IMG/VR virus record: IMGVR_UViG_3300020470_001015
Location: 1-20,554 of that record
Strand: one strand, 5' to 3'
DNA from: a virus
Length of the DNA: 20,554 bases
Shown: in pieces, positions 2,250 through 11,668 of the stretch
Numbering within the stretch: position 1 is the stretch's first letter
How the letters are laid out: each line of letters begins with the position of its first letter
Program-made: the position numbers and the translations under genes
Notes under the pieces: model-generated
What the model was told of the DNA's origin: nothing
The model's database searches: none
Seen by the model: only the letters and a program-made list of their open reading frames with translations

Positions 2250-2405
2250 ATGATTAACTCACCATTGTTAACAACAATCAATCCACAATTAGAAGAGAGT
2301 TTTCCACACTTAGCGGAAGGATTGTGGAAAAATAGTGTATATTTAAAATGTCAAAATAAACATAGGTTTGTGTTATTTAACGGATGTAATATGGACTCTA
2401 GTTAG
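2250..2405 (+). CDS. Possible small ORF, 51 aa
   Basis: An ATG at 2250 opens 51 codons ending at TAG 2403-2405. The product begins MINSPLLTTINPQLEESFPH and ends NGCNMDSS. The same frame extends upstream to a TTG at 2223. There is no Shine-Dalgarno site and no family match. It overlaps the paired TTTTCCACA sites, so this stretch may be regulatory DNA rather than coding. If the ORF is not real, positions 2200-2531 are a 332-nt gap holding the DnaA-box-like pair, an inverted repeat and a promoter. Confidence 0.35.
   Translation: MINSPLLTTINPQLEESFPHLAEGLWKNSVYLKCQNKHRFVLFNGCNMDSS
2300..2331. repeat. Inverted pair of TTTTCCACA (DnaA-box-like) sites
   Basis: TTTTCCACA at 2300-2308 and its exact reverse complement TGTGGAAAA at 2323-2331 form a 9-bp inverted repeat with a 14-nt centre. 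An overlapping pair, CCACAAT (2283-2289) and ATTGTGG (2321-2327), adds to the symmetry. TTTTCCACA is the DnaA box form described for cyanobacteria. A third perfect copy lies at 2654-2662. The sites could bind host DnaA or simply form a hairpin. Confidence 0.5.
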
Positions 2406-2425
2406 TGTTATCTTAGAGCGTAACA

Positions 2426-2476
2426 TAGCGAGATTTTTTTGTCAACAACTGCTAAGAAATATGCCAATCCTCGCTA
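2426..2476. repeat. Inverted repeat just upstream of the early promoter
   Basis: TAGCGAG at 2426-2432 and CTCGCTA at 2470-2476 are exact reverse complements flanking a 37-nt centre that contains a run of seven Ts (2434-2440). The right arm ends 5 nt before the -35 hexamer at 2482. The position would suit an operator, but a 7-bp arm pair can arise by chance. Confidence 0.3.
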
Positions 2477-2481
2477 ACACC

Positions 2482-2510
2482 TTGACACCACACATTTTTG
2501 CCTATATAAT
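2482..2510 (+). promoter_or_regulatory. Perfect-consensus sigma70 promoter
   Basis: TTGACA (2482-2487) and TATAAT (2505-2510) are separated by exactly 17 nt. Transcription should begin near 2517, only about 15 nt before the ATG at 2532. A consensus promoter of this kind is read directly by the host vegetative RNA polymerase, as in early transcription of T4-like phages. It would drive 2532-2702 and 2724-2894 and could read on towards 3086. Confidence 0.8.
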
Positions 2511-2531
2511 ACTATTGTTGCCACAATTACA

Positions 2532-2702
2532 ATGGGAAGATCTTACAAACGTAACGACCTCTATTCATCACATAAGGCGAAGAGTTTGCGAGAAAAGAGA
2601 AAACAATCCAAGACAAAGTATCGGAGGGAAAATGTTAACGATTCCACAGACTATGTGGAAAAGTATCACAAACCCCGCAACGATTACCCACACCCCGCAT
2701 AA
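2532..2702 (+). CDS. Small highly basic protein, 56 aa
   Basis: The ATG at 2532 lies directly behind the perfect promoter and opens 56 codons ending in TAA at 2700-2702. The product begins MGRSYKRNDLYSSHKAKSLR and continues with a run of Lys and Arg (EKRKQSKTKYRREN), then a Tyr/His/Pro tail (KYHKPRNDYPHPA). The high positive charge suggests nucleic-acid or RNA-polymerase binding. An early takeover protein would fit but is inference. A longer frame over the same DNA (2368-2736) starts before the promoter and has an unconvincing composition, so I prefer this one. Confidence 0.6.
   Translation: MGRSYKRNDLYSSHKAKSLREKRKQSKTKYRRENVNDSTDYVEKYHKPRNDYPHPA
2642..2662. repeat. Third TTTTCCACA site (minus strand), within a short palindrome
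   Basis: TGTGGAAAA at 2654-2662 is the reverse complement of TTTTCCACA. With TTCCACA at 2642-2648 it forms a 7-bp inverted repeat with a 5-nt centre. It lies inside the small basic gene, so coding constraint may explain part of it. Confidence 0.4.
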
Positions 2703-3085: not shown

Positions 3086-3574
3086 ATGTCCATAGCAAAT
3101 GAAAACGATAGAGAAATTCGCAAGAGAGAGTTAGAGGAAGAATTCGCAGACTTGCTAGGACTCCCTTGGTCTGGTAGGAGATATCCAGGGTGCTATGGAA
3201 TTGTGCAGAAATATGCCCAGACACGCCTTGGAAGGTCTCTGAAGGACTTCTCAGGGTTATATACATCTTTCATGGATGATGCTGTGAAAGAAGAGGATGG
3301 GGTTTGGATAGCACGACCTGAATGGGGAGAGTTACTGGACATGTCTATCTTACAGAAGAGTGATCTCCTCTTGTTTAAGGTATACGACACAGTAATGGGA
3401 GACGAAGAGAAATTTAAGAAGAGAGCACCCAATCACGGTGGGGTTTACTTAGGTGATGGATTCTTACTTCATCAGTTATGGCAAGAGAAGAGTAGTATTG
3501 TAGACATGCGTAGAGGGGTCTATAAGAGATACCAGACATGTTGTGTAGGTATAGTTAGGGAAAACACTACATAG
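3086..3574 (+). CDS. NlpC/P60-like cell-wall peptidase, probably tail-associated
   Basis: The 162-residue protein has the order expected of NlpC/P60 cysteine peptidases, which cut peptide cross-links in peptidoglycan. The likely nucleophile is Cys36 in YPGCYGIVQKYA. LLDMSILQKSDLLLFKV (about residues 83-99) matches the usual 'GDl-l' strand. The catalytic His is probably His117 in NHGGVYLGDG, and His129 in LLHQLW may be the third polar residue. The C-terminus returns to 'GIVRE', typical of phage members such as the lambda gpK C-terminal domain. There is no signal peptide or membrane segment, so it is either carried in the tail or released by other means. Its position just before structural genes favours a tail-tip lysin that locally opens the wall at infection. 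The ATG has only a weak TAGG upstream. Confidence 0.75.
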   Translation: MSIANENDREIRKRELEEEFADLLGLPWSGRRYPGCYGIVQKYAQTRLGRSLKDFSGLYTSFMDDAVKEEDGVWIARPEWGELLDMSILQKSDLLLFKVYDTVMGDEEKFKKRAPNHGGVYLGDGFLLHQLWQEKSSIVDMRRGVYKRYQTCCVGIVRENTT

Positions 3575-9010: not shown

Positions 9011-9190
9011 ATGGGATATCCTGAACGACCTGTCGATATGTCCGATTCCTTTAAGGAAAACGGTTGGGAATATTGTAAATACTTAATTACTGACCCAAGA
9101 TGTGATAAATATCTTAGTAAAAGTAGACAAGAATGCCCACCTACAGGTTCAGATCAGAAAAATATGTCAGTAGAGGATTCAAGGACTTAG
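9011..9190 (+). CDS. Possible 59-aa leader ORF overlapping gene 25
   Basis: An ATG 15 nt after the expected late transcript start, with AGGG 8 nt before it, opens 59 codons ending in TAG at 9188-9190. The product begins MGYPERPVDMSDSFKENGWE and includes EYCKYLITDPRCDKYLSKSR. The last 58 nt overlap the start of gene 25 in another frame. Up to about residue 41 the composition looks protein-like; the overlapping tail does not. It is either a real small late protein or a leader that couples to gene 25. No family is recognised. Confidence 0.4.
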   Translation: MGYPERPVDMSDSFKENGWEYCKYLITDPRCDKYLSKSRQECPPTGSDQKNMSVEDSRT

Positions 9191-9546
9191 CTGTGTCTTT
9201 TAAAGCGAATCCTAATACTGGTGATTTTGGTGTGGTTAAGAATGAGAATGCTATAAAGCAGTCAGTTCGTAACCTAATTCTGACAATGTTCGGTGAAAGA
9301 CCCTTTCAAAGAAGCATTGGATCTAAAGTTAAGGCACTTTTGTTTGAACCTTGGGATCCTTTTGCAGTAGATACCATAAAAAGTGAAATTTACAACTGTC
9401 TAGCTAGACTTGAACCTCGTATTGTAGTAACAGGTGTCGCACTTCGTGATGATTCTGAGATCAATTCAGTCCAAATAGGTATAGATTATACCATTGTGGG
9501 TGAATCAGAAACCCAAAACGTCGAATTTCTCCTAGAGAGAGCGTAA
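9133..9546 (+). CDS. 25: Baseplate wedge protein gp25
   Basis: The 137-residue product matches the gp25/TssE family, close to the 132 residues of T4 gp25. It has the SFKANPNTGD N-terminal part, the conserved block FGERPFQRSIGSKVKALLFE (about residues 53-72), and the family's EPR motif at Glu94-Pro95-Arg96 in RLEPRIVV. In T4, gp25 has a lysozyme-like fold without activity. It joins gp6 and gp53 in the wedge and starts sheath assembly at the baseplate. It precedes gp6 by one base (stop at 9544-9546, ATG at 9548), the usual order in T4-like cyanophages. Confidence 0.93.
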   Translation: MPTYRFRSEKYVSRGFKDLAVSFKANPNTGDFGVVKNENAIKQSVRNLILTMFGERPFQRSIGSKVKALLFEPWDPFAVDTIKSEIYNCLARLEPRIVVTGVALRDDSEINSVQIGIDYTIVGESETQNVEFLLERA

Positions 9547-9547
9547 A

Positions 9548-11668
9548 ATGCCAGCAATTCCTTCACAATTAACGTCTTTAGACTTCTTTGAAATCAAAGA
9601 ATCCATAAAATCATACCTTCGGACACGAAAAGAGTTTACCGATTATGATTTTGAGGGTAGTTCTGCGTCATATTTGATCGATATACTAGCATATAACACA
9701 TATTATACAGCATTTAACGCTAACATGGCGTTAAACGAAGCATTTTTAGAGACTGCAACGGTCAGAGATAACATTGTAAGGATCGCAAAGCAGTTAAATT
9801 ACACTCCAAGGTCAATAAAAGCACCTAGAGCATGTGTCAAATTGGTTGCACAGACTACAATTGGTCTAAATGGCACTACTTTTCCAGAATTTGCTACCCT
9901 AAGGAAGGGTGATGTCTTTGTTGCAGACAATGATAACGATAGTTATACCTTTGCACTCACTCAAGACATCCAAGTTTCAGTAGATACTGCTACTGGACAG
10001 GCAATTTTCGATAATGTCCTTGTATATCAAGGTAATTTGCTTACTGCAAACTATACAGTTGACTATACTAGGAAGCAAGACTTCGTTATTCCCGATGAAA
10101 ACGTCGATACTGGTCTTTTAACAGTAGATATTTCACCAACTGCTCAATCTTCAGAGACTGATACCTATAGTCTTGCTGCAAATGTCACAAATGCTGACGC
10201 AACTTCCAGAATTTACTATTTGGAAGAGACAGATGACATGAGATACCGTCTTGTTTTCGGAGATGGGTCAATTGGACGTAAATTAATCGATGGTGAATAC
10301 ATTCAAGTCACATATGTGTCCACTGATGGGGTTGAAGCTAACGGTGCAAAGGGTTTTGACTTCGTTGGTAACGTAGTTGACTCTGATAATCGTGTAATTA
10401 GTCCAAATGCCATAAGATTATCGACTAAGGATGCTGCTCAAGACGGTGAAGACCGTGAAACAGCACTTTCTGTCAAGTTTAGAGCACCTAGAGCGTATGC
10501 AACCCAGAATAGGGCAGTTACTGAGAATGATTATGAGCATATAGTCTCTGAAATATACCCCCAGGCAGCGTCTGTGACCGCCTATGGGGGTGAGAAACTA
10601 TCTCCTCCTGTATATGGTAAGGTTTACGTCGCAATTAGACCAAAAACAGGAAATAAACTCAATGAGACGACAAAACAGAAGATTAAAAAGGACTTATTGA
10701 AGTATTCTATCGCTTCAATCGATCCTGTCATCATTGACCCTACAAGTTTTTACGTTATTCCGAAATCTTACGTTTATTATAATGGAAATGACACTTCTTT
10801 GACTGGATCTCAACTAGGAACTAAGATTTTACAAGGAATTGACCAATGGAATAAGGCAGGTATCAATAATCGCTTCAATGGACGCATAGATGGGTCTAAA
10901 TTTGGTGCGATGGTTGATAGTAGCGATCCTAGCATCTCTGGTAACGTTACACAGATGACTTTAGGTCAAAATCTTGATGAATTCACCTTTGGAAACGTAT
11001 TTACCCAATGTCTAGACTTTGGTAACCCACTTTATGACCCTTCAGGGTTTGCTGGTAGTCCAAAAGACGATGGTGACTCAACAGATGATGATTCTGGTGA
11101 TGGTACAGGTGGAAAATGTAAACCATCCTTCTCAACTGTGAAATCTGGGACATTTTATGCAACTGGATACACAGAAGACCTTGTAAATCTAACTTTGACC
11201 GATGGAGCGACTGCTGTAGCAGTTTCATCTCCTGGTTTGTCAACAAATGTCACCAATCAGGTGTTAGTGCCTGTAAATATTAGAGATGATGGTCAAGGTA
11301 ACTTAATTTTGGTCACAACAAGGGATGAAACCGAATTAACGCTAAATCCTTCTGTTGGAAGTGTAGATTATGGTAGTGGTCAGGTTTGTGTTGGTCCGAT
11401 AGCGATACAAGGCACTCCAGATGACACTGAAAGGTTGCCTATCCAAGTTTTACCTGCTGGTGGATCAATTGCGGTACCACCTGGCGTAGATCCAACAATA
11501 TTTAATCCCTCAGTCAATCCAATTGACTATACAATCAACGATGTAGCAATCCCCACCTTCGATCCTAATAACTTTAATGGTTATAATTTCGGTGACCTAG
11601 GGGGTATAAATATCATTGATTATCCAAGTGATACATTCACTTATCCAGTCAGCGAATCCTGTTTCTAA
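9548..11668 (+). CDS. 6: Baseplate wedge protein gp6
   Basis: The 706-residue product opens with the gp6 signature SLDFFEIKESIKSYLRTRKE. ILAYNTYYTAFNANMALNEA and LETATVRDNIVRIAKQLNYT follow, as in other T4-like and baseplate-J type proteins. The GDGSIGR and YGKVYVAIRPK stretches in the middle are also typical. T4 gp6 has 660 residues and forms the dimeric inter-wedge ring that holds the six wedges together. Residues about 504-524 form an acidic linker (DDGDSTDDDSGDGTGGK) between the core and a beta-rich C-terminal part of about 180 residues ending VSESCF. It lies between gp25 and the giant structural gene, with 1 and 5 nt gaps. Confidence 0.92.
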   Translation: MPAIPSQLTSLDFFEIKESIKSYLRTRKEFTDYDFEGSSASYLIDILAYNTYYTAFNANMALNEAFLETATVRDNIVRIAKQLNYTPRSIKAPRACVKLVAQTTIGLNGTTFPEFATLRKGDVFVADNDNDSYTFALTQDIQVSVDTATGQAIFDNVLVYQGNLLTANYTVDYTRKQDFVIPDENVDTGLLTVDISPTAQSSETDTYSLAANVTNADATSRIYYLEETDDMRYRLVFGDGSIGRKLIDGEYIQVTYVSTDGVEANGAKGFDFVGNVVDSDNRVISPNAIRLSTKDAAQDGEDRETALSVKFRAPRAYATQNRAVTENDYEHIVSEIYPQAASVTAYGGEKLSPPVYGKVYVAIRPKTGNKLNETTKQKIKKDLLKYSIASIDPVIIDPTSFYVIPKSYVYYNGNDTSLTGSQLGTKILQGIDQWNKAGINNRFNGRIDGSKFGAMVDSSDPSISGNVTQMTLGQNLDEFTFGNVFTQCLDFGNPLYDPSGFAGSPKDDGDSTDDDSGDGTGGKCKPSFSTVKSGTFYATGYTEDLVNLTLTDGATAVAVSSPGLSTNVTNQVLVPVNIRDDGQGNLILVTTRDETELTLNPSVGSVDYGSGQVCVGPIAIQGTPDDTERLPIQVLPAGGSIAVPPGVDPTIFNPSVNPIDYTINDVAIPTFDPNNFNGYNFGDLGGINIIDYPSDTFTYPVSESCF

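Follow-up and report, generated by a model that had tools for sequence, protein, structure and literature searches.

Clustered copies of the DnaA box of the cyanobacterial host, TTTTCCACA, stand at a single locus upstream of the gp25 baseplate genes in T4-like phages of marine Synechococcus, where they may be the central part of an origin-like module found once per genome. On the evidence of sequence comparisons, the array very probably binds host DnaA and, less firmly, the balance leans towards its working as a replication origin, or part of one, that is based on this host protein. If this is true, a family of viruses believed to do without DnaA may use that of its host to begin copying its DNA.

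The window, i.e., the whole stretch of DNA analyzed, covers an IMG/VR record in full (20,554 bases), yet that record is a fragment of a genome. Its gp25 (9133-9546) and gp6 (9548-11668) genes place it among the T4-like phages, as an earlier note on this DNA had supposed, and its closest matches at the nucleotide level are marine cyanophages (~72%). An NlpC/P60-like protein, under the Pfam cut-off, is encoded at 3086-3574. Exact matching confirms the three perfect copies of TTTTCCACA that the earlier note had reported, at 2300-2308 (+), 2323-2331 (-) and 2654-2662 (-), and bears out its remark that no other copy was noticed: a fourth copy is found nowhere in the 20,554-base window. Its estimate of about 0.2 copies by chance likewise stands, with dinucleotide shuffles giving an expectation of 0.21 copies in the window and at least three copies in one of 100 shuffles. 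Copies with one mismatch are at chance level (nine as against 7.6 expected), and the signal therefore resides in the perfect copies.

The first two boxes constitute, as had been claimed, an inverted pair, with box 1 (2300-2308, plus strand) as the left arm and box 2 (2323-2331, minus strand) as the right arm, 23 bp from start to start. Alignments show that the 14-bp spacer between them (2309-2322) contains a recurrent TTAGCGGA, in place of which other phages have TGCGGAAA, a string resembling a weak box. The pair sits in a 332-bp stretch separating the ORFs at 1861-2199 and 2532-2702. A mechanically called ORF covering it (2223-2405) was rejected as a gene: no relative of it was found, and its reading frame is not kept, because the 13- to 15-bp spacers of relatives would break it. 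Box 3 (2654-2662, minus strand) lies within the ORF at 2532-2702, the gene of a 56-aa protein, and is kept in 23 of 24 relatives; the codons at this site are also conserved and the neighboring third codon positions equally constant, so that separate selection on box 3 is not proven.

Since the window is a fragment, the genome-wide count of TTTTCCACA was made on related complete genomes. In isolate T4-like cyanophage genomes, chosen without regard to the motif, it is rare (0-8 copies each) and clustered; the many evenly spread copies that the earlier note had named as refuting its observation are not seen. At least two copies stand together 3-8 kb upstream of gp25 in Syn9, S-PM2, Syn1, S-WAM1, S-SSM5 and S-SM2, and across the eight genomes of the enrichment count the 10 kb upstream of gp25 hold 19 of the 34 copies, as against 1.8 expected. 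The clustered boxes number two to four per phage genome. Further, TTTTCCACA is the only 9-mer with close pairs (9-40 bp apart) in six of the eight genomes, the next-best 9-mer having such pairs in three when counted genome-wide. No box cluster is present in T4, Syn5 and P-SSP7. In S-PM2, annotated tRNA-Asn and tRNA-Leu genes overlap the box cluster (NC_006820 19177-19333; L351 2678-2834), and these calls may be wrong.

In IMG/VR, the inverted pair recurs with a 14-bp spacer in at least 119 contigs, with a 15-bp spacer in at least 120 and with a 12-bp spacer in 30; no IMG/VR contig has it with a 19-bp spacer, and none contains a same-composition control sequence. Among the matches listed, T4-cyanophage markers occur in the fetched flank of 169 of 269 loci, 135 of these marker-bearing loci include gp25, and all 135 have the pair upstream of gp25 and no more than 12 kb from it. 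A search with 161 bp of the S-CAM22 module gave matches in 200 phage records, every one of which is named as a Synechococcus phage, a Prochlorococcus phage or a cyanophage. Alignment of the syntenic interval shows that relatives sharing the flanking genes also keep the sites, and the lack of conservation that the earlier note had given as its other refuting condition is not seen: boxes are kept in 25 of 25 aligned regions upstream of relatives of the 56-aa gene, with their number (2-3, including one mismatch), orientation and spacing varying. The notion that the boxes reflect chance or coding constraint could draw on the position of box 3 in a conserved coding stretch; for the pair, which is noncoding, conserved and clustered across many genomes, it is already refuted, and its overall probability is negligible. 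A few contigs that have 48-63% G+C and lack cyanophage markers also contain the same inverted pair (L028, L045, L091).

The identification of the sites as cyanobacterial DnaA-box-like is well supported: TTTTCCACA is the DnaA box of most cyanobacteria, with DnaA binding tested in Cyanothece (PMC4674748), and it marks the host oriC. In 30 dnaN loci of the Cyanobiaceae, the family of Synechococcus WH7803, 26 of which were long enough to count, the 280 bp before dnaN, i.e., the host oriC, show a 66-fold enrichment of boxes with up to one mismatch and contain 20 exact copies, with none elsewhere in the loci. The host array comprises a convergent pair of boxes 20-21 bp apart, with a DnaA-trio (CTACTACTACT) at its end; the WH7803 origin itself has near-matches only, TTTTCCACG and TTTTCCCCA. 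The cyanobacterial oriC and the phage module share clustered TTTTCCACA boxes in both orientations, AT-rich DNA alongside and two convergent boxes separated by about two turns of the helix. They differ in that the pair spacing is 20-21 bp in the host as against mostly 23-24 bp in the phages, and in that the host has more and weaker boxes, the DnaA-trio and dnaN, whereas the phage module has a promoter and a conserved block (CTTAGC); the trio CTACTACTACT of the host loci is absent from the phage module. A kinship of the CTTAGC block itself with the host oriC was considered and rejected, there being two chance-like strings and no model match.

The array could in principle be bound not by DnaA but by a phage-encoded or other host protein of DnaA-box-like specificity, given that these phages use a T4-type replisome of their own (PMC2984593) and that several of them retain the module although they lack exact boxes. 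However, the 9-mer exactly equals the box of the host oriC and of other cyanobacteria, and no candidate binding protein was identified; this explanation is held to be improbable.

The arrangement of the boxes follows the DNA helix. Same-orientation boxes are most often 11-12, 21-22, 32-33, 42-43 or 53-54 bp apart, and among periods of 5 to 20 bp the best fit is 10.4 bp, with an R of 0.73 as compared with 0.28 at most in 2000 random draws. Convergent pairs outside the searched spacings give a period of 10.7. As the sequences are related, none of these figures is a probability. The boxes are hence in step with the helix, as for a cooperative complex, and their placement on one helix face, with number and orientation left free, points to a protein array rather than an RNA hairpin. 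The inverted pair might make a hairpin, whether a terminator or a structured RNA, and the minus strand around it folds better than most shuffles (z -2.6). The plus strand, however, reaches only z -1.3, and Syn1, S-WAM1 and locus L157 have same-orientation boxes with no such pair. With box orientation varying in this way, and with no terminator found and no Rfam match, this candidate was rejected as very improbable.

The pair is directly followed by an AT-rich stretch of low duplex stability (2332-2379), a candidate unwinding element in which GTGTATATTT.AAA is conserved. In the window, the 50 bp of lowest stability start at 2330 and rank among the weakest 0.1%. Six of eight isolates resemble the window in having their least stable 50 bp overlapping the boxes or immediately after them, the chance for a single genome ranging from 0.01 to 0.48. 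Next comes a conserved block, AGTGTTATCTTAGAGCGTAACATAGCGAGATTTTTTTGTCAAC (2404-2446), nearly invariant among relatives, and then a sigma-70 promoter on the plus strand (TTGACA-17-TATAAT, 2482-2510), which the earlier note had called perfect and which indeed scores 12/12, being conserved with substitutions in most relatives. The closest relatives retain the order GTGTATATTT.AAA, AGTGTTATCTTAGAGCGTAACATAGCGAGATTTTTTTGTCAAC and promoter after the boxes, and other phages have a variant of the module, TTAAATAAA ... CTTAGCACG ... TGTCAA. In these other phages, the last box and the CTTAGC block are mostly separated by about 49, 59, 69 or 78 bp, i.e., the distance changes in steps of about ten. The first gene past the module (2532-2702, plus strand) encodes a basic 56-aa protein (MGRSYKRND...) with 34 related loci and weak matches to phrog_3226 and phrog_1464; a conserved basic protein of this kind (MGR[ST]YKRND...) follows the module in the window, in relatives and in S-WAM1.

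The presence of the promoter raises the alternative that host DnaA on the array regulates transcription, tuning the strong promoter (2482-2510) and the small genes downstream, perhaps in a manner tied to the host cell cycle. The 12/12 match about 150 bp downstream of the boxes, largely conserved in relatives, and the location of the module at the border of small genes and baseplate genes are consistent with such a role. However, about 150 bp is far for direct contact of the pair with polymerase, and the AT-rich stretch and helical phasing better match an opening complex, so that regulation is regarded as unlikely, if still the foremost of the competing explanations. The array might alternatively act as a sink, in which many phage copies titrate DnaA and thereby halt host replication; the host has few exact boxes of its own (14 in WH7803), and phage DNA present in many copies would increase their number. 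Yet a genome contributes just two to four clustered boxes, and titration has no need of a fixed locus, helical phasing or an adjacent AT-rich block, which makes a sink quite improbable.

Of the three roles that the earlier note had left open (origin, sink or regulator), an origin-like DnaA complex is favored by the phasing of the boxes on the helix, by the AT-rich stretch of weak duplex next to them and by their confinement to one fixed locus. We infer a sequence of events in which host DnaA would occupy the two to four boxes on one helix face and the resulting complex would aid the opening of the adjoining AT-rich stretch. Transcription or helicase loading, by phage gp59/gp41 or host DnaB, could then launch the first round of replication, after which recombination-dependent replication would take over. 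GC skew, proposed earlier as a check, lends this reading no support at the locus: the isolate genomes show no minimum at the boxes, after detrending, several genomes have their maximum about 3-12 kb left of the locus, and the minimum is at about 90-105 kb in most, being near the gp15/small terminase region in Syn9. GC and AT skew were consequently rejected as a pointer to the origin, as their minima at about 90-105 kb seem to follow gene classes.

The exact paired cluster is absent at this locus in P-SSM2, P-SSM4, P-HM1, MED4-213, P-RSM4, P-RSM6, S-SSM7 and S-CRM01, and the boxes are therefore not essential to every phage of the group. Six of these are phages of Prochlorococcus, the others being S-SSM7 and the freshwater S-CRM01. 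Absence of the boxes according to host is thus only a tendency, because S-SSM7 and S-CRM01 lack them while P-SSM7, a Prochlorococcus phage, has them. A profile search with the module returned a match in all box-bearing genomes tested and, among those without exact boxes, a strong match in P-RSM4 and weak ones in MED4-213, P-RSM6, P-HM1, S-SSM7 and P-SSM4. The CTTAGC block persists in phages without exact boxes, which suggests that it is older or more general than the boxes. An AT-rich stretch with the CTTAGC block was also observed upstream of gp25, without exact boxes, in four loci (L391, L392, L393, L394) and in P-SSM4 near 50986. As a tentative generalization, to which we give somewhat less than even weight, a large group of lytic T4-like phages may begin the first round of replication at a single origin opened by host DnaA on helically phased boxes echoing the host oriC, with relatives, mostly of Prochlorococcus, having lost or replaced the boxes and kept the AT-rich stretch and the block; the group would then record a change of initiator at one origin.

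T4-like cyanophages rank among the commonest viruses of the sunlit ocean. As to how their replication starts, the only cited proposal is the prediction of one theta origin in Syn9. The module offers one short place in hundreds of genomes at which to examine the start of replication, and would tie the replication of the phage to host DnaA, which itself depends on host state. No published report of DnaA boxes in marine T4-like cyanophages was found in the literature searched; we are aware of no earlier sign of DnaA use in T4-like phages, and the module would be the first. The DnaA-dependent origins of plasmids and prophages, P1 oriR, F ori2 and pSC101, likewise combine a few DnaA boxes with an AT-rich stretch in a foreign replicon. 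These origins also carry iterons for their own Rep protein, whereas no iterons were found in the phage module, and the phages are T4-like and lytic. The origins of T4 (oriA, oriE, oriF, oriG) are not known to use DnaA, and neither a box pair nor a match to the module model occurs in the T4 genome. The promoter beside an easily melted stretch nevertheless recalls the R-loop origins of T4. Additionally, T4-type replisome genes are common to both (PMC2984593).

The single theta origin predicted in Syn9 (Weigele 2007, as cited in review PMC2984593) would, as far as the review's account of it goes, resemble the module in being one per genome in a T4-like cyanophage. Several T4-like cyanophages have their lowest cumulative GC skew and their lowest cumulative AT skew within a few kb of each other, at about 90-105 kb; in Syn9 this is at about 99-102 kb (L556), near gp15 and the small terminase gene. 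Such coincident minima could represent another origin or a transcription border.
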